In this document: positions 4,590-31,236 of the stretch, piece by piece
Numbering within the stretch: position 1 is the first letter of the stretch
Layout: the number at the start of each line of letters is the position of its first letter
NCBI RefSeq assembly: GCF_004331915.1
Contig: NZ_CP036528.1
Location: 1,006,567 to 1,070,566, forward strand
DNA: 64,000 nt
From: Ureibacillus thermophilus
GTDB lineage: Bacteria > Bacillota > Bacilli > Bacillales_A > Planococcaceae
Direction of reading: 5' to 3'
Notes under the pieces: generated by a model
Database searches by the model: none
Told to the model about the DNA's origin: nothing
The model's input: only the letters and a program-made list of their open reading frames with translations
Position numbers and translations under genes: made by a program

Positions 4590-4704
4590 GTGGAGTGAAT
4601 GAATGGATATGAGAGGGATAGACGAATAACTCGGCTGCTTCTTCTGTTGGGGATAATGCTTCATTTTGTACGTATATAACCTCAATTAGTTAGTATATTA
4701 ATTT

Positions 4705-5372
4705 ATTTAGTGCGTATGCAACTTCATTTGGTGCGGATACTGCCTCGTTTCGGGCGTTTGCTACTCCATTTGGTGCGGATACTGCCCGGTTTCGTGCGTT
4801 TGCCTCCTCCATTCGTGCGGATACTGCCACGATTCGTGCGTTTACTTCCTCATTTCGTGCGGATACTGCATGGTTTCGTGCGTTTACTTCTTCATTTCGT
4901 GCGGATACTGCATGGTTTCGTGCGTTTGCCTTCTTATTTAGTGAGGATACTGCTCGGTTTCGTGCGTTTACCTCCTTATTTCGTGCGGATACTGCATGGT
5001 TTCGTGCGTTAGCCTCCTCATTTGGTGCAGATACTGCTTGGTTTCGTGCGTTTACTTCCTCATTTCGTGCGGATACTGCCTCGTTTCGTGCGTTTACTTC
5101 CTCATTTCGTGCGGATACTGCATTGTTTCGTGCGTTTGCCTCCTCCATTCGTGCGGATACTGCATGGTTTCGTGCGTTTGCTTCCTCATTTGGTGCGGAT
5201 ACTGCCCCGATTCGTGCGTTTACTTCCTCATTTGGTGCGGATACTGCTCCATTTCGTGCGTTTACTTCCATATTTCGTGCGTTTACCTCCTCCATTCGTG
5301 CGGATACTGCCATGATTCGTGCGTTAGCCTCCTCATTTGGAGCTGATACTGCTCCATTTCGTGCGTTTACTG
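4705..5372. repeat. 21-bp minisatellite array 1 (about 32 units)
   Basis: The core G-G/T-GCG (usually TTTCGTGCG) recurs at an exact 21-bp period from 4710 to 5361: 31 steps x 21 bp = 651, with no net indel. Two unit types alternate, one ending GGATACTGC and one ending TTTACTTCC, giving a 42-bp higher-order repeat. Open frames on both strands (for example a minus-strand 207-codon frame of SARNEE/NARNHA heptads) follow from a stop-free unit whose length is a multiple of three. No ribosome site or start supports translation. The same core recurs at 8964-9070 and 12320-13307. Confidence 0.95.
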
Positions 5373-12272: not shown

Positions 12273-12319
12273 TATGTATTAAGTAGATGAAGTTTAATGG
12301 ATGTGGAAGGAATCTTAAC

Positions 12320-13307
12320 AATTGGTTCGGATACAGCATCAATTCGTGCGGAAGCTACTTCAATTCGTGCGGATACCACTCCAATTTGTGCGGATACCCC
12401 CCAATTCGTTCGGATGCCACTTCAATTCGTGCGGATACCACCCTAATTCGTGCGGATATCCCCCAATTCGTGCGGATGCCCCCTCAAGTCGTGCGGAAGC
12501 TACTTCAATTCGTGCGGATACCACCCCAATTCGTGCGGATACTACCTCAATTCGAGCGGATACCCCCCCAATTCGTGCGGATGCCACCCCAATTCGTGCG
12601 GATACTACTTCAATTCGTGCGGATGCCACCCCAATTCGTGCGGATACCACCTCAATTCGTGCGGATACTACCTCAATTCGTGCGGATACTACCTCAATTC
12701 GTGCGGATACCACCTCAATTCGTGCGGATACTACCTCAATTCGTGCGGAAGCTACTTCATTTCGTGCGGATACCACCCCAATTCGTGCGGAAGCTACTTC
12801 ATTTCGTGCGGATACCACTCCAATTCGTGCGGAAGCTACTTCAATTCGTGCGGATACCACCTCAATTCGTGCGGAAGCTACTTCATTTCGTGCGGATGCC
12901 CCCTCAATTCGTGCGGAAGCTACTTCAATTCGTGCGGATACCACCCCAATTCGTGCGGATACCACCCCAATTCGTGCGGATACCACCTCAATTCGTGCGG
13001 ATACCACCTCAATTCGTGCGGATGCTACTTCAATTCGTGCGGATACTACCTCAATTCGTGCGGATACCCCCCCAATTCGTGCGGATACTACTTCAATTCG
13101 TGCGGATGCTACTTCAATTCGTGCGGATGCTACTTCAATTCGTGCGGATGCTACTTCAATTCGTGCGGATACCACCCCAATTCGTGCGGATGCCACTTCA
13201 ATTCGTGCGGATACCACCTCAATTCGTGCGGATGCCACTTCAATTCGTGCGGATGCCACTTCAATTCGTGCGGATGCTACCTCAATTCGTGCGGATACCA
13301 CCCAACT
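12320..13307. repeat. 21-bp minisatellite array 2 (about 47 units)
   Basis: The unit ATTCGTGCGGATACCACCTCA repeats about 47 times. The GTGCG core is spaced 21 bp throughout except two 20-bp units (ending at 12408 and 12470), each explained by loss of one C from a C-run. From 12470 to 13289 the phase is perfect (39 x 21). Variation is confined to a few positions (GAT/GAA, ACC/ACT/GCC/GCT, CCA/TCA), while ATTCGTGCGGA is nearly invariant. All stop-free frames here are products of the repeat. The array ends abruptly in the middle of an IS66 transposase gene. Confidence 0.95.
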
Positions 13308-13867
13308 GCTGGGCTCATGTTCGTCGCTATTGGTTAAAAGCTGATAGTAAAAATGGGCGGATTGGTGTAGATTATTGTGATCGACTTTACCGCCTAGAAC
13401 GGAAATTTAAGAAACTTCGACCGAGTGAACGGAGAAAAGCTAGACAAAAGGAGTCCAAACCAATTGTCGAGGCATTTTTCAAATGGATTGAAGAATCTCC
13501 TTTCTATGGGAAGAATGCCCTTGCAAAAGCTGCGGAGTATACATTGAAGCACGCCGAAGGCTTAAAAGCTTTTCTGTATGATGGACGCATTGAAATGGAC
13601 AACAACCCAGCTGAAAATGCGATTCGGCCGAATGTCATCGGACGAAAAAACTGGCTGTTTTCCGTGAGTGAATCGGGAGCCGATGCAAATGCCATCTGTT
13701 TAAGCTTGGCTGAAACGGCAAAAGCTAATGGAATTGATTTTTATCAATACTTAGTGAAAGTATTGTCGGAACTCCCAAGTTTACCAATCCATCAACAGCC
13801 AGAAATATTAGATCGCTATTTGCCATGGTCGAAAACAATTCGTGAATCATGTGCAATGGCAAAATAG
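13304..13867 (+). pseudogene. tnpC: IS66 TnpC, C-terminal fragment fused to the repeat array
   Basis: About the last 185 residues of the same IS66 TnpC as at 6.5-7.7 kb, beginning at NCWAHVRRYWLKADSKNG. The last catalytic residue (E of DNNPAENAIRP) is present but the two aspartates are absent. The frame joins without a stop to the array upstream, giving a misleading 526-codon open frame from 12287. Unlike the first copy it has no internal stop (CGA at 13380). The two copies are nearly identical, so the duplication or second insertion is recent. Confidence 0.9.
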
Positions 13868-18029: not shown

Positions 18030-19127
18030 TTATGACATATCTAATACTTTATTGACTTCATCTAGGATTATCTCTTGAACTGTTTTTACTCCTCCATGAA
18101 TGATATTAATGTTAAGTTCTTTTAAATTATTTAGTATATTTTCTAAAAGTTTTTTACCTTTTATCCGCTTAATGTATTCTCCATATTTGAATTTAGATAG
18201 TGTTTCTAATGGAATTGTATTATACATAATATTAAAAATTATAGATTTCTCAATCATTAATTTAGTCTGAACATCATCAATAAAAGTGTCTTTTAATAAT
18301 AAAAAATATCTAAACGTCACATCATGTCTAATATATGGAGTAAAACCTAATGCCAAAGAGGTTAGTAAGATTTCCAATGTTTGTGCAACATATGAATACG
18401 TTGCTATGTTAAATACATCAATATTAGATAAATCTTGAAATTGGGGATATTCTTTTTTATATCTTTCACAACGTTGTTCTAAGGTCATTTGAGAGTCTGT
18501 GGAGTCAATGTATACTAGATTGTTCAAAATAAATTCGTCGATCTTACTTTCGATGTCTGATATCGTTCTAAATTTCTCATAAAATTCCTGTTTTCCACTT
18601 ACTTTAGTATTAAGTATGCTTGAAATAAAAATCCAATAAAACTTATTTATAAAATCTTCGTTTTTAGTTTCATATTTCAATAACATTGATTTAATCGGTA
18701 GAATATGGATTGTGTTTTCAATATTATTTAACAGATTTAACGTATCATGAAAAGCGGTTTTAAAAATTCTTATAGTATTTTTATCTACAAACTTATCATC
18801 TGGTATCCTAAAAAAAGGTTCCATTTTCAATATAGGGTCTGGAACTACATGGTAATCTCCAAATAATTTGAAATAATAATGTTCAAAATCATCTATATCT
18901 AAATATATAGCACCCGATAACAATAAACTTTCAATTGAATTAGGACGCCTATCATTTTCAAAAACCAACAAACTTAATCTTTTAAGCCAAAAAATTTTGA
19001 CCTCATCTATTATTTTTAAAATAGTATTTGAATCTAAATCTTCTTTCAACACAAATGGCTGATACTTTATTAATAAATCACTATATTCTTTCTGAATCTT
19101 GTTTAATACAGGACTGTTAAATTCCAT
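18030..19127 (-). CDS. Unknown protein, second gene of a two-gene accessory operon (365 aa)
   Basis: I do not recognise this family. It is 365 residues, predicted mainly helical, rich in Ile, Leu, Phe, Asn and Lys, with no signal peptide and no obvious catalytic motif. Some hydrophobic stretches (FYWIFISSIL, TLEILLTSLALGFTPY) are short and more likely core helices than membrane segments. The ATG has a good AAGGAG site inside the end of the upstream gene; the two genes overlap by 11 bases, so they are almost certainly co-translated. Base composition is clearly more AT-rich than the core genes, suggesting acquisition by transfer. Context suggests a defence-type operon; this is inference. Confidence 0.7.
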   Translation of the reverse strand: MEFNSPVLNKIQKEYSDLLIKYQPFVLKEDLDSNTILKIIDEVKIFWLKRLSLLVFENDRRPNSIESLLLSGAIYLDIDDFEHYYFKLFGDYHVVPDPILKMEPFFRIPDDKFVDKNTIRIFKTAFHDTLNLLNNIENTIHILPIKSMLLKYETKNEDFINKFYWIFISSILNTKVSGKQEFYEKFRTISDIESKIDEFILNNLVYIDSTDSQMTLEQRCERYKKEYPQFQDLSNIDVFNIATYSYVAQTLEILLTSLALGFTPYIRHDVTFRYFLLLKDTFIDDVQTKLMIEKSIIFNIMYNTIPLETLSKFKYGEYIKRIKGKKLLENILNNLKELNINIIHGGVKTVQEIILDEVNKVLDMS

Positions 19128-20589
19128 AGTTTAACTCCTTATATTTTTGTTTATACCAATCTGGAAAATCATATTGACTTGCTAACAATTCTATGTGCTT
19201 TCTAAAAACTTTCTCTGTATCATAAATAACGCTCGGTAACTTTTGATAATTCTCTATATCAGGTATCGAATGGTATTTATGGAGTGGGTTGTCACAAAAT
19301 ATCATTGAACTTTCTCGTATTGCTCCCCAAAAGCCATGAACATAGTTGTTATCATATTCATAATAAATTTCATATAATTCCTTTTCATCTACTATTTCAA
19401 ACTTCTTTTTAATAGATTGTGTATCAAAGTATCGAACATCTATATCTAAAAACTCCTCAAACATAGGTTCATTTACAAGTGCATTTAATATTGGTATTTC
19501 AATATGGCTATTTTCATCAACAATTGAACTTTCTCTTGCTCTTAACAAAACATGTTTATATTTTCCTACTCCATAAAGTTGATAATCTAAAAAAATACTT
19601 GAATTTGTATTTTCATTCATTAACAAATACTTCATCATAATGTAAACTTCTAAAATAGTTCTAAAAGCATGTCGCCCTAAAATAGAGTTTTCCAATTTTT
19701 TATCAATTAGTTCTTCAAATATTTTTGTCATATATACTGTTGATCCTAGTAGTACATTAAATTTTGCATCTTCTAATAAATTTTTTTTATTCTCTAACAG
19801 TAATTGTTCTAATACTTTTTTAGTATCATCAATGAATAAATTTACATCTGAAATTTGCTCACGAAACTCTATATACATGGGTTTACAATCAGTTAGCATT
19901 CCTAACTCACTCCAAAAATAGGAAATGTAACTGTCGTTCTTTTCTTCAAAGTCTAACCCCTCTAAAGATCTTATAGATGATCTGTATAATCTCATTCTTT
20001 CATCTTCATGTTCAATTAGGCTATAATTTTTGATAGCCTCCACCCCATTAAGACCTTCGAACAAATTTATTTTCCCTATATATAATGGTAAACAAATAAT
20101 AAGATATCGAAGATCAGTAGTTGTATTAGATTGTGGATTATTAAACTCTTTAACAGCCTCCCTGATTATTGATAACCTATACTCCACAGTTTGCTCTCTA
20201 ACGTAAAAGTATTTGTTAAACAGTTCATACTTATCACCTCGAAATAAAATTGTGAGAGGAGATAAAACAGCTGGCTCGACAAAACGATTGATTATATCAT
20301 AAATTTCCCTTTGTTCTTGTTCCTTAGCATTTGTTATTTGAGATATTTTTGGTTTATAAATATCTATATCTAATCTTGATAATAAATATAGGATTCTTTG
20401 TCCAATTTCTAATCCTTCTTTTCTACCGTAATGGAGTAGTATTAATCCCAACCATAGATACTCTGGTAATCTTTCTTTAGTCCAAGAGTTTAATGCTAAT
20501 TTATCTCCAAGTATTGAATTCATAGGAGTAATAATTTTCCCTTTAATATATTTATGGTCAGACAATCTACTTCGCCCTTTTGTTTCCAA
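19117..20589 (-). CDS. DUF5677-like protein, first gene of a two-gene accessory operon (about 490 aa)
   Basis: A large helical protein with no signal peptide. The region GRHAFRTILEVYIMMKYLLM, followed about 100 residues later by YVHGFWGAIRES, matches the arrangement of DUF5677-type proteins: an Arg/Glu helix, then a helix with a conserved His. Its biochemical role is unknown. The TTG at 20589 is chosen because AGGAGGT lies about 7 bases upstream; an in-frame TTG at 20610 lies upstream of that site. It overlaps the 365-aa gene. It sits among restriction-modification, nuclease and recombinase genes in an AT-rich block, so a phage-defence role is a reasonable guess. The domain call is from memory of the pattern. 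Confidence 0.6.
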   Translation of the reverse strand: METKGRSRLSDHKYIKGKIITPMNSILGDKLALNSWTKERLPEYLWLGLILLHYGRKEGLEIGQRILYLLSRLDIDIYKPKISQITNAKEQEQREIYDIINRFVEPAVLSPLTILFRGDKYELFNKYFYVREQTVEYRLSIIREAVKEFNNPQSNTTTDLRYLIICLPLYIGKINLFEGLNGVEAIKNYSLIEHEDERMRLYRSSIRSLEGLDFEEKNDSYISYFWSELGMLTDCKPMYIEFREQISDVNLFIDDTKKVLEQLLLENKKNLLEDAKFNVLLGSTVYMTKIFEELIDKKLENSILGRHAFRTILEVYIMMKYLLMNENTNSSIFLDYQLYGVGKYKHVLLRARESSIVDENSHIEIPILNALVNEPMFEEFLDIDVRYFDTQSIKKKFEIVDEKELYEIYYEYDNNYVHGFWGAIRESSMIFCDNPLHKYHSIPDIENYQKLPSVIYDTEKVFRKHIELLASQYDFPDWYKQKYKELNYGI

Positions 20590-20709
20590 CAGATTTACCT
20601 CCTGTTTCAATCTATTTTTGTATTAATAATTGTTTAACAGAACTTACTCCATTAAAGAAAGAGAGAGCAGAGTTTTGCCAACAACAAAAAAGAGAAATTG
20701 AACAACATA

Positions 20710-21501
20710 TTATAAATTTTCTTCTAAAACGGACCAATCCCTACCTTGTGAGAGGTCAACTTGGAACTCTTCAAGGAATAGTTTTAAGACATATTCTGCA
20801 TTATCTGGCCCGCCAATATACCAATGTTCAGGAGAGAGAGCAACAGTAATGACATCCCATGAATACATTTCTCTCAGGAAACGCAAGTCCCTTCGTATTT
20901 CCTCTGTATCCTTTAAAATGTAGCAAGTATGTCCAGATTCAGTTTTACTTTGGAACGCAAAGAAGTCCAAATCCAGGTCTAAGATTAAGGAATGTCCTTC
21001 TGTATATGAGTTCATGAGATTCATCTCCTTAGCAAACTCTAGCATCTCTATTGAATCCCAATGAATCCCCCAAAGTTTCTCTATCCGTTTTTTGGGGAGA
21101 TGTTTTTGCAGGTAAAGTGAGTGAGACTCTTGATCGAATAACCCATCTTGATCTTCTGGAGAAACATAAACTATTGTTTGGATTGTTTCTCTTGCAAAAC
21201 CAGCCCATATGAAGTTATCTATTCCTACAATTGTTTCATTCCCTAATTTACTTTCCGTTAGAGATGACAGTTCCTTTAATCCCTTAGCTTGTAACAGCCC
21301 TGGAACCATTGCTCCATCGTTTGCAGCATCGAGGTGCTGGTCAACATGAAATAGCGTTGCATTGTTTTGAATCCACCCCTTGTCACGAGCTAAATCCCAT
21401 GCAACAAATGCCCAATTATGGTGTTTCATTAGAAAAATTTTTTGCTCTGGAAACACAACTTTCCATTTATCGTCCTCTCTCCAAGTCACTTTTGTTTTCA
21501 C
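20710..21501 (-). CDS. UPF0489 family protein (arginase/deacetylase-like metal motifs)
   Basis: A 263-residue protein. HVDQHLDAAND (Asp54, His56, Asp58) and ILDLDLDFFAF (Asp175, Asp177, Asp179) look like the metal ligands of the arginase/histone-deacetylase fold. They are also the landmarks of the UPF0489 family, which includes human C5orf22. ALSPEHWYIGG near the C-terminus also fits. No enzymatic activity is established. The GTG at 21501 is directly behind AGGAG; an in-frame GTG at 21489 is an alternative. Transcribed toward the two-gene operon, 120 bases away. Confidence 0.7.
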   Translation of the reverse strand: MKTKVTWREDDKWKVVFPEQKIFLMKHHNWAFVAWDLARDKGWIQNNATLFHVDQHLDAANDGAMVPGLLQAKGLKELSSLTESKLGNETIVGIDNFIWAGFARETIQTIVYVSPEDQDGLFDQESHSLYLQKHLPKKRIEKLWGIHWDSIEMLEFAKEMNLMNSYTEGHSLILDLDLDFFAFQSKTESGHTCYILKDTEEIRRDLRFLREMYSWDVITVALSPEHWYIGGPDNAEYVLKLFLEEFQVDLSQGRDWSVLEENL

Positions 21502-22199
21502 ACTCCTCTTCTCCTTTAATCTTTACCTATATTATTCAGCTAAATATAAAGAAACCTTTCTTTAAATAATCTGCTCTCGTTCAACAAAGGTTTTTTTACT
21601 CCTTTTTAAACTATTTATTCCTAATCACACCGCTTGACACGCTTGTAAGTATCAATAAGAAACACCCATCAAATCAAGGAGTCCCCTATGATTCAATTCT
21701 ATCTTTTTTCTTCTTCGCCATGTTCTTTAACTTCTAAATTTATTTATCTGACAAATGGATCAGACAGTTTCAATCGCCATCACCCCACACATAATTCCCC
21801 ATATCTTATATTTTGTGTAACTCGCTAAATAGATGAAAGGCTTGTTAATTTCTATCTTCTTTAGTGTTTTGTTTTTCAGTTAAACACTCAATTTATTAAG
21901 TGTACTTACAATAATGCTAGTAATAAATTGTCATTTCATAAAGGTTCTTATAGAAATTTGTTGAATATTGTATATTTAATTAAATGGCCCTTTAATTGAA
22001 TAAAAGAAGCGATACCTCATTAAAGCATCGTACACGTTAACCATCCTCGAAGCGAGCCTCACCACAGATCATGGAAGTTAATTAGTTCTTCACTGGGAGT
22101 TCAATAAGGAAAAGAAAATTAAGATAATACACGTTACGCTTTAAATTAGCTTTTCATTTAATGATTTTTTGAGTTTATTAATACTTCAATAGGAAGAGG
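21502..22199. other. AT-rich intergenic region
   Basis: About 700 bases with no convincing coding sequence. The divergent promoter for the UPF0489 gene should lie near 21510-21560. Nothing else supported. Confidence 0.5.
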
Positions 22200-22700
22200 T
22201 TACCTCTTAGTACATCTATACTTGAAGGGGGTGGGGCGCAAAACGTTAGTAGCCGAAGGCTTGATATATGTTACTCCCCCTCGGAATTTTTTTATAAAAA
22301 ATCCCTTATATAGGGTGATTTCAAAAATTCTAAAGTATTTTTTAGAAACTTTAAGGAGTTTACTAAATGTCTTTAATCATCCTCAATATTCTTTTTATTT
22401 GATAAAAATTTCTTTTTTCTTAAGCATGTTTTCTCCGCCAGTTATAAATAGCTCTTTAATTTGGACAAATCTACTAATATTGTAAAATATTTAAATTTAA
22501 TGTAAATATTTTTCCTAATTCCCACTTATTTTTTTATATCTAATAAGCAGGAAATTATGTCAAAAATACCATACAAAAAAGGAATTGCAAAAATGATGCA
22601 GAAATAAATGGAAATAAAAGGGATGAATAGTTATGAAGGTAAATGGAGTAGAGGTAATAGAAATTGTCAAAACAAAAATACCGGAAGATAAAGTCTTTAA
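22200..22700 (+). repeat. Direct repeat, copy A (leader plus start of small gene)
   Basis: This stretch is repeated at 27411-27790. Identity is high in the leader (22208-22350), the 22350-22400 stretch and around the small gene start (22550-22710). Copy A has about 150 extra bases near 22400-22545. The two copies flank the restriction-modification genes in the same orientation. Confidence 0.9.
22222..22293 (+). ncRNA. Structured RNA leader or small RNA, copy A
   Basis: TTG-A-AGGGGG (22222-22231) pairs with CCCCCT-CGG (22276-22284), followed by AATTTTTTT. This gives a terminator-like stem with one bulged A and a 44-nt loop containing GGGGCGCAAAACGTTAG. In copy B the outer pairs are C-G instead of T-G, so pairing is kept while sequence changed. 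The loop differs at only two positions. This argues for a functional RNA. A second small hairpin (CCCT..AGGG) follows at 22303-22315. I do not recognise an Rfam family. Confidence 0.6.
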
Positions 22701-23007
22701 GGTAATCTACAAAGATAAAAAGATATTAAAGAAAACTATCAAAGCTGAGTTTCGAATGGTAAACAAACATAGGAAAATATGGGCCTATATAGTAAAAGAT
22801 GAAAACTTCATGGATCTTCAAGAGGATTACATAAATATATTTAGCAAAATCCATGAAAAGATATATGAATACTTAATAAGGCACCATGGATATATTATCA
22901 GTCCATTGTGTTTAGCAATTAAAAAATCCAGTGTTTTGCAAGATTTAGAAAAAATGAAAAAGCAAGTACAAACTGATAGTTCAGGATGGTATTTCCTTCT
23001 TGAATAA
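22633..23007 (+). CDS. Unknown small protein downstream of the RNA leader (124 aa)
   Basis: Not recognised. A basic protein of 124 residues beginning MKVNGVEVIEIVKTKIPEDK, with a beta-rich start and helical middle (EDYINIFSKIHEKIYEYLI), no signal or membrane segment. A short upstream frame, MSKIPYKKGIAK, precedes it and is also present in copy B, where it runs in frame into the gene start. The truncated duplicate at 27635 shows the N-terminus is conserved (conservative changes V/I), which supports real coding. The gene lies about 340 bases after the structured leader and converges on the methyltransferase gene. Confidence 0.65.
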   Translation: MKVNGVEVIEIVKTKIPEDKVFKVIYKDKKILKKTIKAEFRMVNKHRKIWAYIVKDENFMDLQEDYINIFSKIHEKIYEYLIRHHGYIISPLCLAIKKSSVLQDLEKMKKQVQTDSSGWYFLLE

Positions 23008-23142: not shown

Positions 23143-24729
23143 TTACAGTAATAAAGTAAGCTGTTGAGGTTGTTCCGACTCTTGTACACCCATAATTCTA
23201 GCTAATTTCTTTGCAGATATCTTTCCTAATTCTTTAGGTTCAACTTTTTTTAGTCCTCCCCCATATTCTCGTCCCGCTTTAATAAATTGCTCATGTCCAA
23301 TACTTTGTAGTGCATTAAAAACAGCTTCGTACAATAATGGATCGTTATTTAGCGCCTTCTTCAAGGAACCTTTTGGATACAATAATAAGAATACGTTAGT
23401 AGCGATAGCCTGGGATTTATTCCAGATAAATCTAAATGGATTTGAATCGCCTTCTCCCCTTCCCATATAAGTACATAAGAAGGGGGCTGGTTGCCTTTTC
23501 TCTTGGCTATACCATATCTTACGCTTACTTGTTAGATAACCGTTAGCAACTCCTAATTCCTTTCCCTTTTGCAGGTACTCCCAAAAATCAGGATATCTTT
23601 CTTGTATTATCTCTTCTGGAAGGTCACAATCAATCACAACTAAATTTTCGTTAAGTAATGGATATCCGTTTTCTCCGCTTTCGATAATGTCATTTTTAAG
23701 AATTCTAGGGGGTGGGAGAATCGGACGTAAGCATTCGAATGGAATTCCCTTTTGTACGGCGTCATCTTTACTTAGGATGAAGAACTCATTGTTTCCAGTT
23801 GCGATACCTCGTTTAATATCAAAGAACTCCGATAGAATTGAATAAGTCTGGTCTTCTTTGTTGTTTTCCTCGGTGGAGTTCGGTGTTAAAAATACTGTCC
23901 ACTTATCAATCTTCTTCAACTCACCAATGCTTACGGTTTTAGTAATGAGTGGTTTCTTAGGGCTTCCACCAAAGGAGAAAGTTACCATATCTAAATCACA
24001 AGGAGTTTTCTTTTGGTACACTACCACCGACGATGTCACAAGTGCATCATCAAATCGTAAGTCTTTTGGGTCGTATTTATGAATATGAGTTACTGTAACT
24101 TTTTCTGTTAGATAACTTCTTATCACTCTTCCATAATTTACATCCATAAACTCGGAAGGTATTAACCAAGCAGCAATTGAATCATTTTCCAACCATTTAT
24201 GGGAGAGCAGTATAAAGTAACAGTACAAGCCTGCCAATCCGCTTATGTTTAGATCCAATTGTTCCTTAACCGCATTCTTTAATAGCTCTTTGTAATCTTT
24301 ATCCAAGTGATGATGCCTTACATAAGGTGGATTTGTAATAAGTAAGTTGAATAAGTCCTTTGAATTAACCTCCTGTGTAAAATCGCCATTTCTTATGTCG
24401 AGGTTCCATCCCCTCCAAAGGTTTTGAGAATAATTTACTATTTCTTCATCTTTTTCAATTCCGAGTGCAATTTCAACTTGCTCATTATCAATCTTTTGCA
24501 ACAAAGCTGAATAAAAGGAACCTGTACCAATTGCAGGTTCAAGAAATCTTATGACTTCATCTTTCTTACCCATTTTTTTTCGAATAGTTAATACAAAATC
24601 GACAATTTCAGAAGCTAATCCTGGCGGAGTGGCGTATTGACCTAGCTTGTTTCTTTCGACCATACTCTTGGATTCATCAATCTTATGTTGTACGTTTAAT
24701 CTTTCCTTTTCAATGTCATAGATGTTCAT
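23143..24729 (-). CDS. N6-adenine DNA methyltransferase of a XamI-type restriction-modification system
   Basis: A 528-residue methyltransferase of the Eco57I/gamma type. Motif X-like GQYATPPGLASEIVDF (about 30-45) is followed by AdoMet motif I FLEPAIGTGSFYS (about 62-74) and catalytic motif IV ITNPPYVRHHH (about 135). The C-terminal half is the target-recognition region. It methylates adenine in the recognition site to protect host DNA. The start is 5 bases from the stop of the restriction gene, so the two form an operon with the nuclease first. No damage seen. Confidence 0.9.
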   Translation of the reverse strand: MNIYDIEKERLNVQHKIDESKSMVERNKLGQYATPPGLASEIVDFVLTIRKKMGKKDEVIRFLEPAIGTGSFYSALLQKIDNEQVEIALGIEKDEEIVNYSQNLWRGWNLDIRNGDFTQEVNSKDLFNLLITNPPYVRHHHLDKDYKELLKNAVKEQLDLNISGLAGLYCYFILLSHKWLENDSIAAWLIPSEFMDVNYGRVIRSYLTEKVTVTHIHKYDPKDLRFDDALVTSSVVVYQKKTPCDLDMVTFSFGGSPKKPLITKTVSIGELKKIDKWTVFLTPNSTEENNKEDQTYSILSEFFDIKRGIATGNNEFFILSKDDAVQKGIPFECLRPILPPPRILKNDIIESGENGYPLLNENLVVIDCDLPEEIIQERYPDFWEYLQKGKELGVANGYLTSKRKIWYSQEKRQPAPFLCTYMGRGEGDSNPFRFIWNKSQAIATNVFLLLYPKGSLKKALNNDPLLYEAVFNALQSIGHEQFIKAGREYGGGLKKVEPKELGKISAKKLARIMGVQESEQPQQLTLLL

Positions 24730-24734
24730 TATTA

Positions 24735-25694
24735 CTACAACCCCAATTTATCCATATCTTCAATTCGATGTTCCCAAACCCAATCCAATCCCTCAGCTGC
24801 TTCATATCCTAAATATCCTGAATCAAAATATCCACACAGAAACAATATAAGTTTAATCTCCTTACCGTATGTAGCCTGTAACTGCCGTATTTTTGTGGCT
24901 TCTTCTTTTCTCCTTTTGTTAGTATTAGTGAAGTCGCCTGCTGATTTACACTCAATAAGAATTGGATATTCAACGTCTTTAGCGTTTTTCCTCTGAATAA
25001 CTACATCAATGGGAATATTAACCTTTTTATCATTATCATTCTCTAATATGACAGGTATATTCATTCTAAAACTATACGTTCCCTTTTTCATCTCTGTAAT
25101 AGGTTTATCACTCGGGTGAATCAACTTAACGTAACCACGTTTCTGAAGAAAATCATCAATCAATTTAAGTTGGCGTTGTTCTTGAGCATTTTTGATAATC
25201 GGGTCAGCTACCGAACCACAAAGACGGTCAGCTACAATGCTTGAAGCACGATAGCGTTCTTCATTATTGGGTTTTTTTCCCTCTGCAAGCCATGTAAATA
25301 TATCTTTATCTAGTAATTTAATTATAACACCGCAAATTGCTGTTAAATTACGTTCTAATTCCTCTTTTTTCATTCTTTTCGGTAACTTTCCTTCTTCCAA
25401 AGTCTTGACAATAGAACCGTTTGCATACGCTAATCCAGTTAATCTGTCCCTTGCAATAGGCGGTGATGTACACATTCTAAGGACAGATACTATCGAAGGA
25501 TGTTGTTTAATTTTTTCTGGACTTATGTTAGTCAGGTCTTCAAGAATTTTCAATCCTTGTTCAACCTGTTTTGTTGTTTCAATTCTGGTTACTCTGTATG
25601 CTTCTGGAGCAAATTCCATAAACCATTTATTGTATAGGTCAACAGATTGCGCCACATCTTTTTTCCAAAGAAATGGTTTATCAGCATTTATCAA
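24735..25694 (-). CDS. XamI family type II restriction endonuclease
   Basis: A 319-residue protein that matches the XamI restriction enzyme family (RE_XamI): KPFLWKKDVAQSVDLYNKWF, APEAYRVTRIETTKQVE and TSPPIARDRLTGLAY. A PD-(D/E)XK nuclease core is visible as Asp230 in NIPIDVVI and Glu248-x-Lys250 in PILIECKSAGD. The prototype XamI cuts GTCGAC; specificity here is inferred only from family membership. A TTG start follows AGAGGG. It is transcribed before its methyltransferase, so protection on entering a new cell must depend on a control not seen here. Confidence 0.88.
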   Translation of the reverse strand: MINADKPFLWKKDVAQSVDLYNKWFMEFAPEAYRVTRIETTKQVEQGLKILEDLTNISPEKIKQHPSIVSVLRMCTSPPIARDRLTGLAYANGSIVKTLEEGKLPKRMKKEELERNLTAICGVIIKLLDKDIFTWLAEGKKPNNEERYRASSIVADRLCGSVADPIIKNAQEQRQLKLIDDFLQKRGYVKLIHPSDKPITEMKKGTYSFRMNIPVILENDNDKKVNIPIDVVIQRKNAKDVEYPILIECKSAGDFTNTNKRRKEEATKIRQLQATYGKEIKLILFLCGYFDSGYLGYEAAEGLDWVWEHRIEDMDKLGL

Positions 25695-26952: not shown

Positions 26953-27165
26953 TTATATAAACAATCTTCTAGTGGCATATTTGGACATCCTATTAAGTTG
27001 AAATGTAGTGTTTAGTTTATTTCACTTTACAATTGATTGTCTCCAACCAGTAGAATTCACCATAAAAAGTGCAAATATGACAAAACGAGCAACTACCGTT
27101 CTTCTCATATGAAAATCGACTAAGAAAAGTGTGATTTGTAAATCAATTCCGTGCTACATAAAGAA

Positions 27166-27383
27166 GCAATTCGAAAATTGGTTATTTCTTTGTAGAACAC
27201 ATTGCAAATATTTCAGAAAAACAAGCAAAAATCTTTTTCATTTTAACCATCAATCCTCTAAATAGCGGTGTTAATATACTTTGGGCATTAATACTATCTG
27301 TAATTTGTGTTGTGTTCCACTTGATTGTTTTTGAATATTTAGCTCAAAAAAAGCATTTGAACCTAATGAAAAAAGATTCATGA
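27166..27383 (+). pseudogene. Fragment of a small membrane protein without start codon
   Basis: An open frame of about 70 codons after a TAA: KIGYFFVEHIANISEKQAKI, then a hydrophobic segment NILWALILSVICVVFHLIVF and a KKHLNLMKKDS end. There is no ATG, GTG or TTG at the expected position, so it looks like the tail of a broken gene. The rest of 26953-27410 contains nothing I can support. Confidence 0.35.
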
Positions 27384-27410
27384 ATAAATAGCTAGAGGTT
27401 ACTTTAACAC

Positions 27411-27790
27411 TCAGTACATCTTCTATACCCGAAGGGGGTGGGGCGCAAAACGTTAGTAGCCGAAGACTTGATAAATGTTACTCCCCCTCGGAATTTTTTT
27501 ATAAAAAAACCCTTATAAAGGGTTCATTCAAAAATTCTAGAGTATTATTTAGAAACTTTAAGAAGTTTACTAAAGGTGTTTAATCATCCTCAATCTTCAC
27601 TTGTTTGATATAAACTTCTAATAAGCCGAAAATTATGTCAAAAATACCATACAAAAAAGGAGTTGCAAAAAAATATGTAGAAATAAATGGAAATAAAAAG
27701 GGGGGAATAGTCATGAAGATAAATGGAGTAGAGGTAATAGAAATCGTCAAAACAAAAATACCGGAAGATAAAATCTTTAAGATTATCTAC
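27411..27790 (+). repeat. Direct repeat, copy B (leader plus truncated small gene)
   Basis: Second copy of the 22200-22700 module. It contains the structured leader (27429-27500), the short frame starting MSKIPYKKGVAKKYVE at 27635, and the small gene start at 27714 (MKINGVEVIEIVKTKIPEDK). The gene is cut after about 25 codons at 27790 by insertion of IS66, whose terminal repeat GTAAGCGCC begins at 27791. Confidence 0.9.
27429..27500 (+). ncRNA. Structured RNA leader or small RNA, copy B
   Basis: CCG-A-AGGGGG (27429-27438) pairs with CCCCCT-CGG (27483-27491), followed by AATTTTTTT. The loop of 44 nt is nearly identical to copy A. Outer CC here replaces TT in copy A, converting T-G pairs to C-G pairs. 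The following hairpin AACCCTT-ATA-AAGGGTT (27508-27524) is a perfect inverted repeat, also altered but still paired relative to copy A. Confidence 0.6.
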
Positions 27791-27811
27791 GTAAGCGCCA
27801 AATATCCCACA

Positions 27812-27867
27812 CCTTCTAACCATTTTGATGTTTTGTGATAATGAGATCAACATCAAAAGTTAGGAGG
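27812..27867 (+). promoter_or_regulatory. Hairpin covering the tnpA ribosome site
   Basis: CCTTCTAAC (27812-27820) and TTTTGATGTT pair with AACATCAAAA and GTTAGGAGG (27859-27867). The AGGAGG ribosome site of tnpA would thus be sequestered in transcripts that enter from outside the element, a known way for insertion sequences to limit impinging transcription. Confidence 0.6.
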
Positions 27868-27878
27868 TTTTTATTTTT

Positions 27879-28205
27879 ATGTCCTCAGATGAACGAAAAC
27901 AATTGTGGCAACAACGAATTGAATCTTATCGATCTAGTGAAGAGTCAAGTGTAAAAGCTTGGTGCAAACAAAATCAAGTAGGTCACCAAAGTATGTATAA
28001 ATGGATGAAAAGACTAGAGTTAGAGACAACTGAAACTTCACGGACTTCCCCTCAATGGCTAACTGTTGAAGTATCCCATCCGTTGGATGAAAAAAACTCC
28101 CCGCTCATCGTTAACATTGGGGAATTTTCCATCGAAGTAAAAGAAGGTTTCAATCCACTCCTTTTCAACGAAGTGGTTCAGGTGCTGAAAACACATGTTA
28201 AGTAA
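27879..28205 (+). CDS. tnpA: IS66 accessory protein TnpA
   Basis: A 108-residue protein. The N-terminal helix-turn-helix is visible as RIESYRSSEESSVKAWCKQN then VGHQSMYKWMKRLE, typical of IS66 TnpA. It is needed with TnpB and TnpC for transposition. GGAGG lies about 12 bases upstream and can be hidden in a hairpin. The stop overlaps the start of tnpB by 11 bases, the usual arrangement for coupled IS66 genes. The gene appears intact. Confidence 0.9.
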   Translation: MSSDERKQLWQQRIESYRSSEESSVKAWCKQNQVGHQSMYKWMKRLELETTETSRTSPQWLTVEVSHPLDEKNSPLIVNIGEFSIEVKEGFNPLLFNEVVQVLKTHVK

Positions 28206-28549
28206 AACACCCATTCAACATGTTTATTTAGCAGCGGGGGCAACGGATTTACGCAAGTCGATTGATGGATTAACAGCCATTATTCAAATGAGCTTTCAGT
28301 TAAATCCTTTCTCTTCTAATCTCTTTGTTTTCTGTAATCGGAAACGAGATAAATTGAAAATTCTCCATTGGGATCACAATGGGTTTTGGTTGTACTATCG
28401 TCGTTTAGAGAAAGGTCTTTCAATGGCCTGATGAAAGAACTCCCGGCCCTTTGTGCATCACTCCCCGCCAATTCAGTTGGTTGCTCGATGGTCTTTCATT
28501 TGAACAAAAACAAGCACATGAACAAGTATCAGCTAAAATCATGGTTTAA
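28195..28549 (+). pseudogene. tnpB: IS66 tnpB, frameshifted
   Basis: Starts MLSKTPIQHVYLAAGATDLR with the IS66 Orf2 (TnpB) signature TDLRKSIDGL, and runs normally to YYRRLEKG. Here the frame shifts and ends in a TGA at 28431. The remaining homology (FQWPDERTPGPLCITPRQFS, WLLDGLSFEQKQAHEQ) continues in another frame to a TAA at 28547. Loss of one base near 28410 would explain it. Without TnpB the element should be unable to move on its own. Confidence 0.88.
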
Positions 28550-28598
28550 AAGGAATTTGACATTGACCTGTCAATTCCTTTCCTTTATTCTTTAACTT

Positions 28599-30176
28599 AT
28601 GAACAAACACAAACAAACCCATGAATCAACAATTGAAGAACTGCAAGCGAGAAATGCGGAACTCAAAAAACAAAATGAAGCCTTACAGGCTAAAATCAAA
28701 TGGTTGGAAGAACAATTCCGCCTTAGCCAACATAAAAAATTTGGGGCTTCCAGTGAAAAAACGAATCCGGATCAACTCGAACTTCCTCTTTTTAATGAAG
28801 CTGAAATCACAGCGGATACAGAAGTGGAAGAACCTACACTTGAAACCATTACTTATAAACGGAAGAAGTCTGTAGGACAACGCGATGCGAAACTAGAGAA
28901 CTTGCCGACGGAAACGATTCACTATCGTTTAGCCGAAGAAGAGCAGGTTTGTTTGTGTTGCGGTGGAACCGTACACGAAATGAGTACGGAAATACGAAGA
29001 GAAATCAAGATTATTCCTGCTCAAGTAAAAGTCGTTGAGCATGTTCAACATATTTACAGTTGCCGTCAATGTGAACGGGAAGGAATCGAGACACCGATTG
29101 TCACAGCCAAAATGCCAACACCAATTTATCCAAAAAGTTTGGCATCTGCATCGGCTATGGCCTATATCATGAACCAAAAATACGTGGAAGGAATGCCTCT
29201 TTATCGTCAAGAAAAGCAGTTGGAACGATTCGGTGTGTATTTATCACGCCAAACGCTCGCCAACTGGATGATTTATGGTGCAACCAATTGGCTTTCCATT
29301 CTATATAAACGGATGCATGAGCTATTACTCGAAAACGATATTCTACATGCGGATGAAACTACACTTCAAGTTCTAGCAGAACCTGGACGAAAAGCGGATT
29401 CGAAGTCTTATATGTGGATGTATCGAACAGGACGAGACGTACCGCCGATCATCTTATATGATTATCAAACGACTCGTCACAGTAAACATCCGAAGGCTTT
29501 TCTAAAAGGATTTAAGGGATATCTGCATGTAGATGAATATGCAGGATATCATGAATTAAAGGATGTCGAACTGGTAGGGTGTTGGGCACATGCAAGGCGA
29601 AAATTCGATGAAGCACTGAAGGCATTACCAGCCAATGTGGATAAAACATCATCAACCGCTGCAGAAGGAATTCAATTCTGTAATCAATTATTCCAGATTG
29701 AAAGACAAATCAGTGAAAAATTTGAGAACTGTACTCCCGAACAGCGCAAAGAATACCGTCTTGAACACAGTAAACCTGTGTTAGACGCTTTTTTGGCATG
29801 GCTAAAAACAAAACGCCCTCAAGTTCCCCCAAAAAGCAAATTGGGAGAGGCAATTACATATTGTATAAATCAATGGAGTAAGCTCATAGTGTTTTTAGAA
29901 GATGGTCGACTTGAAATCGATAATAATCGTGCAGAACGATCGATTAAACCATTCGTGATGGGCCGGAAGGCATGGCTATTTGCACAATCGATGAAAGGTG
30001 CATCAGCCAGCGCTATTATTTATAGCATTGTCGAAACAGCTAAAGAGAATCAATTAAATCCATTGAACTACTTAACCTATCTTTTCGAACAATTACCATT
30101 GATAGATCACAATGATGTAGAAGCCATCGATCAACTCCTTCCTTGGTCGAAGACAATTCCAGAAGAATGTCGGTAA
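28599..30176 (+). CDS. tnpC: IS66 family transposase TnpC
   Basis: A 525-residue full-length IS66 transposase. It has an N-terminal leucine-zipper-like coiled coil (residues 5-45), zinc-finger cysteines CLCCGG and CRQCERE, then the DDE core. Catalytic residues are in [25 protein letters not shown] and [13 protein letters not shown]. The HTH signature KFGASSEK is present. The gene is uninterrupted and distinct in sequence from the copies at 6.5 and 13.3 kb, so a different IS66 subgroup. The stop codon overlaps the left end of the next IS66-type element. Confidence 0.93.
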
Positions 30177-30257
30177 ACCCGAATTCAAACGACGCATTTC
30201 AACCAATCGCACCTCCCTGTAAGATAGAGTTATCCATTACAGAGGAGGTGTTTTTGT

Positions 30258-30455
30258 TTGGCAGTTGAAAAACTAAATATCGTACCTGTCAAATTGGAAT
30301 CTGATTCCGATTCAACTTCAACCTCAACGAGTCGTGGTCCTCTCAGACCTGTATGTGTTATTCAAGCAACGGATTTGAAAATCTCCTTTTACCCCGGGGT
30401 AAAACCTCACATCATCCAAACGGTCATCAAGGAGTTGAATCGCAGTGATTCATGA
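30258..30455 (+). CDS. IS66 accessory protein fragment-like ORF (65 aa)
   Basis: A TTG-started frame beginning at or just before 30258 (AVEKLNIVPVKLESDSDST, ending FYPGVKPHIIQTVIKELNRS). It follows CAGAGGAGGTG and overlaps the next gene, as IS66 tnpA-tnpB pairs do. It is shorter than typical TnpA and lacks the HTH, but has the same layout as the decayed copy at 7914-8101 and so is a normal component of that IS66 subgroup. The left terminal repeat is at 30173. Confidence 0.6.
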   Translation: MAVEKLNIVPVKLESDSDSTSTSTSRGPLRPVCVIQATDLKISFYPGVKPHIIQTVIKELNRSDS

Positions 30456-31236
30456 TTTTACTAAATGTAAAAATATCTATATTATCTGTGGACGAACGGA
30501 TATGAGAAAAGGAATTGATGGTTTGGCAACGTTAATCCAAGATTCTTTCGAACTTGATCCATATAGTGACGCCATTTTCTTATTTTGTGGACGGAAGAAA
30601 GACCGGTATAAATGTTTATATTTTGATGGGGATGGCTTCGCCATGTTATACAAACGAATCGATAATGGCAAACTCCAATGGCCCAGAAACGAAGATGAGG
30701 TTCGAAATCTGACTCAACAGGAGCTTAGATGGTTACTGGAAGGGCTCTCGATTCAACAACCTAAAGCCATCCAAAAATCGAAAAAAGGTATCTCAGGGAA
30801 GACTCATTTAGCCACAGGACTAGGGAGAAAAGCTTGTGAACTAGGTTATGAGGTTCGTTTTTACCGTGTTGCCCACCTAGTTGAGGAATTAGAGCAAGCT
30901 TTACGTAACAACCGTTTATCAGCATTTAGAAAACGGATGGAGAAGGTTGATTTGGTCATTTTAGATGAAATGGGATACTTACCATTTAGTAAAGAAGGAG
31001 CTGAATTATTATTCCAAATTATATCGGAGTTTTATGAACAGAAAAGCGTAATTATTACATCTAACTTAGAATTTAGTCAATGGAACCGGATCTTTACAGA
31101 TTCTCGTTTAACAGCAGCGTTAGTGGACAGGCTAATTCATCACGCCCATATCATCTCTTTTCATGGCGAGAGCTATAGACTGTCCCACGCATTGTCGAAA
31201 AGGAATGAAATGGGTGGCAAACCTCTGCATTTTTAA
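30445..31236 (+). pseudogene. In-frame chimera of IS66 TnpB and IS21 IstB
   Basis: The first 113 or so codons are IS66 TnpB (IICGRTDMRKGIDGLATLIQ through LEGLSIQQPKAIQKS). From about codon 116 the protein is the IS21 helper ATPase IstB: GKTHLATGLGRKACELGYEV, the Walker B region VDLVILDEMGYLPFSKEGAE, and IITSNLEFSQWNRIFTD. The first part of the IstB Walker A loop (GxxGxG) is missing: the join reads KKGISGKTHLA. The reading frame stays open for 263 codons. It arose by deletion between two elements; an intact P-loop is lacking, so ATPase activity is unlikely. Confidence 0.85.

Follow-up and report, generated by a model that had tools for sequence, protein, structure and literature searches.

A short intergenic element, made of a GC-rich stem, a conserved loop and a terminal run of U, occurs twice in a 64,000-nucleotide stretch of the Ureibacillus thermophilus genome (NZ_CP036528.1, positions 1,006,567 to 1,070,566; the window) and once in each of two other genomes, its known carriers being three genomes from three bacterial families. 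Our leading, still tentative, reading is that the element is a candidate small RNA of about 75 nt that would end at its own terminator and belong to defence-carrying islands.

The two window copies, with the stem parts given in the preliminary description, can be read directly in the sequence:

22222..22293, + strand: element copy 1, with outer triplet, GGGGG/CCCCC stem, 44-nt conserved loop and T-run (read directly; covariance-model match)
22222-22224 (TTG), 22225 (A) and 22226-22231 (AGGGGG), + strand: 5' side of copy 1 (sequence)
22232-22275 (44-nt loop), 22276-22281 (CCCCCT) and 22282-22284 (CGG), then AA: loop and 3' side of copy 1
22287..22293, + strand: T-run (U7) at the 3' end of copy 1 (sequence)
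22227..22246, + strand: stretch containing GGGGTGGGGCGCnAAACG, invariant in all four known copies (four-copy alignment)
22294..22318, - strand: AT tract and small hairpin (CCCT/AGGG) right after the T-run, in both window copies (terminator scan and sequence)
27429..27500, + strand: element copy 2, in the register of copy 1 at an offset of +5207 (read directly; covariance-model match)

As had been described, the loops differ at two of 44 positions (22259 and 22267); over the hairpin stretch, copy 1 and copy 2 differ at 22222 (T/C), 22223 (T/C), 22259 (G/A) and 22267 (T/A). These differences had been called pairing-preserving. The outer T/C changes do keep the pairing in the window copies, but both are one-sided, and the G/A change at 22259 disrupts an inner pair in copy 2. 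A terminator scan for loops of 3-8 nt called neither copy on the + strand, where the element loop is 44 nt, and scored the AT tract with its CCCT/AGGG hairpin as terminator-like on the - strand for copy 2 only.

Both hairpins are parts of one duplication of about 400-600 bp on either side of a XamI-type restriction-modification cassette. By local alignment it extends over about 22125-22710 and 27333-27790, is weak before about 22188 and contains one large intergenic gap. The surrounding genes are as follows:

18030..20610, - strand: DitB and DitA defence genes, divergent from copy 1 (PADLOC)
22633..23007, + strand: ORF of 124 aa, 339 nt past the T-run of copy 1, an orphan in the searches made
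23143..25694, - strand: type II methyltransferase and XamI-type restriction endonuclease, between the copies (protein-family and defence-model matches)
27713..27790, + strand: second copy of the 124-aa gene, start only, with an in-frame upstream ATG at 27635; interrupted near 27790 by an IS66-type insertion

Hairpin and tail are identical between the window copies at 77/82 positions, compared with 73/78 for the first part of the 124-aa coding sequence (Fisher p = 1.0) and 76/86 for the non-coding stretch after the tail (Fisher p = 0.28); the comparison leaves out the 35 bases before the ATG, which hold an indel. The loop had been described as strongly kept. Within the duplication the hairpin is no better kept than the coding part, but much of the loop sequence is retained by homologues in two other families. 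Because the hairpin is conserved no better than coding sequence and folds no better than dinucleotide shuffles (z -0.32 and -0.64 for 81 nt, -0.83 and -0.87 for 139 nt, and -0.23 and +0.39 for 73-nt stretches), the two window copies prove little and by themselves do not make the case for an RNA element.

The insertion (27790-31236) lies in the second copy of the 124-aa gene, and the ORF after it resembles, by eye, fused IS66 OrfB and IstB-like pieces. The repeats 22125-22710 and 27333-27790 are direct and flank the XamI cassette, and recombination between them would delete it. Elsewhere in the window, long ORFs of low-complexity repeats (12287-13344 and 4690-5313; for example PPQFVRI, NARNEAVSA) leave several frames open on both strands. 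The 124-aa protein has no homologue outside the source genome among 61 relatives and 261 order-level genomes, none in the genome-contig, viral-contig, plasmid or phage searches, no similarity to DUF771 and no relative found in the PDB; AlphaFold models it alone with a mean pLDDT of 59.

The evidence for the element comes from other families. Covariance models were built from the two window copies (R1), then from three (R2) and four (R3) sequences. The search from the window copies, which the preliminary description had proposed, led to two further full-length copies in two other bacterial families:

L024 7700-7804, + strand: element of genome G525 (covariance-model match)
L067 9886-9981, - strand: element of genome G870 (covariance-model match)

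In 398 class-level genomes R1 matched the source genome and one other, G525, at full length (52.6 bits, E 6.2e-6 for one genome), and in 299 genomes of the order of G525, R2 matched G525 and the new G870 (48 bits, E 3.0e-6). Multiplying E by the number of genomes searched gives about 0.003 (G525) and 0.001 (G870) expected false matches, the E-values being rough. The source genome was the only carrier among 261 genomes of its own family, both with R1 and with a 22-mer pattern allowing up to 3 mismatches; likewise, R1 found only G525 among 34 genomes of that family, and R3 only G870 among 16 genomes of its family. A pattern scan of 284 class genomes returned G870 and, by chance, G409. Carriers are few and scattered, as seen in searches that, over more than 40 genomes, ran with strict filters under which weaker copies may be missed. 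The one-mismatch match in G409 gave no R3 match with filters off and is presumably part of an endonuclease III-like coding frame, judging by eye from a familiar motif.

Known families and mobile-element collections gave no counterpart. The proposed Infernal search against Rfam was also run, and no Rfam 15 family reached its gathering cut-off in the window; at permissive E up to 10 there were 4 and 10 weak matches, all below gathering. The exact loop 22-mer had no match in genome or viral contigs. Among the listed matches of the element in plasmids and phages none covered 80% of the query, and the short ones were judged chance; further BLAST searches of plasmids and phages gave no matches. Pattern scans of viral contigs yielded 31, 9, 0 and 3 stretches, on all of which the covariance models found no match (E <= 5 or E <= 1). 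With blastn, 61 relatives held, outside the source genome, only seven AT-rich matches of 20-37 nt (E 7.8e-4 to 0.0035), which align to the tail or to the stretch after it. At these loci R3 gave two weak matches, one in L011 (24.9 bits, E 0.0096) and one in L012 (16.9 bits, E 0.95), both mostly deleted, tail-borne and judged chance. Four weak blastn matches in the source genome (L003, L004, L005, L007) gave no R3 match in a test that left out L006, L008 and one match without a locus. In the literature extracts consulted, no description was found of such an element beside BREX, restriction or integrase genes, and four element sequence strings gave one match, on a mycobacterial enzyme.

Over about 70 nt the window copies are 77-83% identical to the two homologues (core identities: copy 1-G525, 57/69; copy 1-G870, 56/70; copy 2-G525, 57/69; copy 2-G870, 54/70), and G525 and G870 share 52/70. 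In each of the six pairs the 80-nt cores outscore 200/200 shuffles. For the 300 nt upstream, the score is matched by 9/200 shuffles (copy 1-copy 2), 11/200 (copy 1-G525) and up to 177/200 in other pairs, and for the 250 nt downstream, compared between window and homologues, by 20 to 112 of 200; only copy 1-copy 2 and G525-G870 beat all 200 downstream. The homologue flanks are unrelated to those of the window and near chance level. Since the cores beat shuffles and the flanks mostly do not, the four copies have in common a short, bounded block whose end is the U-run.

Invariant in all four copies are GGGGTGGGGCGC, AAACG, CCGAAG, CCCCTC and GAATTTTTT; other ways of delimiting the constant parts give GGGGUGGGGCGCnAAACG, CCGAAG, the GGGG/CCCC stem and the U-run, or GGGGTGGGGCGCnAAACG, CCGAAG and CCCCTCnGAATTTTTT. 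The U-run has seven residues in copy 1, copy 2 and G525 and six in G870. With much of the loop sequence and the U-run kept in two other families, the earlier claim of a conserved non-coding element with a terminator-like 3' end holds, and a conserved block with non-conserved flanks and a U-run end is what a small RNA should show (G525 and G870 share one extra downstream block).

Structure adds less. The GGGG/CCCC stem is present in all four copies and, since it never varies, is uninformative by covariation. A second hairpin (P2, GGCG-(5 nt)-CGYY) pairs in 4/4 copies with one-sided G-U/G-C variation at two pairs. A third (P3), around CCGAAG, pairs throughout in copy 1 and G870, has one mismatched pair in copy 2 and is broken in G525 (2/4 pairs mismatched). 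RNAalifold on the four sequences recovers the same three stems, with no pair changed on both sides; the single folds differ between copies, the consensus shows one structure, and no alternative pairing kept across copies was seen. The outer triplet, said to pair in either form, does so in both window copies and is unpaired in G525, the homologue at a BREX locus. Homologues that break the stem had been named as evidence against the proposal, and with this triplet G525 is in part such a case.

On the chosen strand G870 is more stable than shuffles (z -2.23, 8/200), and the other three copies fold no better than shuffles. On the opposite strand z is -2.54 for G525, -1.98 for copy 1, -0.06 for copy 2 and -1.14 for G870, and the inner stem retains, by eye, a U-G pair in copy 2. 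Despite the better folding of G525 and copy 1, the opposite strand was rejected as the RNA, as its outer pairs and U-run do not fit; the named strand is preferred because of the U-run. An RNA structure is therefore plausible from the sequence but weakly supported by covariation, and sequence conservation is the stronger evidence.

Each locus has defence genes nearby: DitAB and the XamI restriction-modification genes in the window, BrxA-BrxB-BrxC in G525, and HsdM-HsdS-HsdR (type I restriction) in G870. To the left of copy 1 lie a UPF0489 gene and DitA/DitB, divergent; to the left of copy 2 the XamI cassette is divergent, with a weak GIY-YIG-like + strand ORF in between. The G525 element has an 88-aa ORF, BrxA, BrxB and BrxC on its left, all divergent, and on its right DUF771 (8109 +), a tyrosine integrase (8545 +) and then a tRNA cluster starting with tRNA-Leu. 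In G870 the element follows a short resolvase-domain ORF on the same strand and a 274-aa ORF, beyond which HsdM, HsdS and HsdR diverge, and precedes, in the same orientation, a 53-aa ORF and a large serine recombinase. Each of the four copies is directed away from a defence operon that lies 5' of it, although other ORFs stand between them in copy 2 and G870, and its T-run is 212-339 nt from the next same-strand ORF.

For comparison, a control of 150 proteins (from 154 ORFs of at least 150 aa in 20 random 10-kb windows of G870 and the source genome) was run as a rough check, and PADLOC hits at E <= 1e-30 were confined to five models (mad3, DrmD and three for Cas9), each with one or two members. 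Mobile islands tend to be rich in defence genes in any case, and the association of element and defence genes at three loci is suggestive.

Several features beside the copies were also recorded. DitA and DitB are strong PADLOC matches (E 1.9e-178 and 6e-89) and lie near a serine recombinase and, by eye, arsenic-resistance-like genes; in the literature extracts covered, a whole-word search turned up neither DitA nor DitB together with defence terms. The UPF0489 protein adjoining them (20710-21501) has a below-cut-off NCBIfam peptide arginase match. An open + strand frame without ATG at about 27160-27383 resembles the end of a small membrane protein and stops about 45 bases before copy 2, and the 118-aa resolvase-domain ORF of G870 (L067 9994-10350), with an apparently short C-terminus, stops a few bases before the element.

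Past the element, G525 and G870 share a second block of 41 nt with 34 identities, including TATAAT (L024 7953-7993, +; L067 9694-9734, -). Its alignment score beats 1000/1000 dinucleotide shuffles and 812/812 other window pairs from these loci. The block sits upstream of two unrelated recombinase operons and, from its sequence, looks like the promoter region before the recombinase operon. This resemblance suggests that the element is not simply the leader of that operon. The window lacks the block (allowing up to 3 mismatches), which also had no BLAST match in phages or plasmids; a 20-mer of it had 10 viral matches, near which the covariance model found no element RNA.

The nearest known classes each share part of this picture. 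Like small regulatory RNAs that end in a terminator, the element is about 75-80 nt long, intergenic, bounded in its conservation, ended by a U-run and set among mobile genes; unlike them, it matches no Rfam family and is known here from sequence alone. The antitoxin RNAs of type III toxin-antitoxin systems also combine a conserved RNA-like element and a terminator with a following small ORF in a mobile setting. Here, in contrast, each site has one element and not tandem repeats (the window copies are 5.2 kb apart), and the genes after it are not a shared family.

The chief rival, ranked after the small RNA and before a DNA-level site and an attenuator, is an insulating intrinsic terminator that would keep transcription of the cargo side from running on into the island's recombinase operon or the one that comes next, its loop having been kept by horizontal spread and not by function. 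We hold this to be a real but rather unlikely possibility. As in Rho-independent terminators, a GC-rich stem is followed within a few bases by a U-run of 6-7 nt in all four copies, and in G525 and G870 the separate TATAAT-bearing block stands between the element and the next operon. Shortly upstream of copy 2 and of the G870 element, an open frame or gene fragment of the same strand stops, which suits a plain terminator too and counts against a small RNA, as does the lack, by eye, of a promoter at a conserved upstream position. Against an insulator, terminators do not usually have a loop as long as the 40-44 nt seen here, and the loop sequence ranks with the best conserved parts, above the closing outer pairs. 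Recent transfer should moreover leave similar flanks, whereas those of window and homologues are near chance, and the nearest upstream genes in G525 are on the other strand.

It is improbable, in our view, that the element acts as DNA, for instance by binding a protein, serving as a single-strand origin or being a target of recombination, with a hairpin that could form in the single-stranded state. Sequence conservation that outweighs structural covariation would suit such a site, as would the site-specific recombinases near two of the three loci; yet the U-run that closes the block is specific to one strand, a feature required of an RNA terminator but not of a DNA site, and the G525 integrase lies between the element and the tRNA genes, which places the element away from the presumed island edge. 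Least probable of all is an attenuator or riboswitch-like leader with conditional termination into the downstream gene, which the terminator-like 3' end before a same-strand ORF in every copy would fit, but which is at odds with the unrelated downstream genes (the 124-aa orphan; DUF771 and a tyrosine integrase; a 53-aa ORF and a serine recombinase), with no conserved alternative pairing having been seen and with the TATAAT-bearing block that G525 and G870 have beyond the element, which suggests a later promoter. The leader or attenuator role for the 124-aa gene proposed earlier is not supported: that gene had no homologue outside the source genome in the searches made, and three loci with three different downstream genes argue against a dedicated leader.

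In the small-RNA reading, the element would be a non-coding RNA gene of about 75 nt, or the 3' part of one, whose RNA would end at its own intrinsic terminator, the U-run. The carriers, in at least three bacterial families, would be mobile islands equipped with anti-phage defence genes, and in two of three loci the element precedes what is likely the promoter region for the recombinase operon of the island. The conserved loop (the GCGCnAAACGYY hairpin and CCGAAG loop) may bind an RNA or protein target and so regulate the island. What the sequences show directly is the element itself, its conservation across families in a bounded block, its location and the polarity of the U-run; transcription, its end at the U-run, the regulation and its target are all points that we infer. 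A bolder version, in which the element is a new class of small RNA of defence-carrying integrative islands whose loop couples mobility on the recombinase side to the diverging defence cargo, seems to us doubtful.

How the movement of defence islands and the expression of their cargo are controlled is poorly understood. If the reading is true, the element would offer a handle on a shared control of such islands, across Dit, XamI restriction, BREX and type I restriction and two kinds of recombinase, and would serve as a sequence signature for finding more of them.
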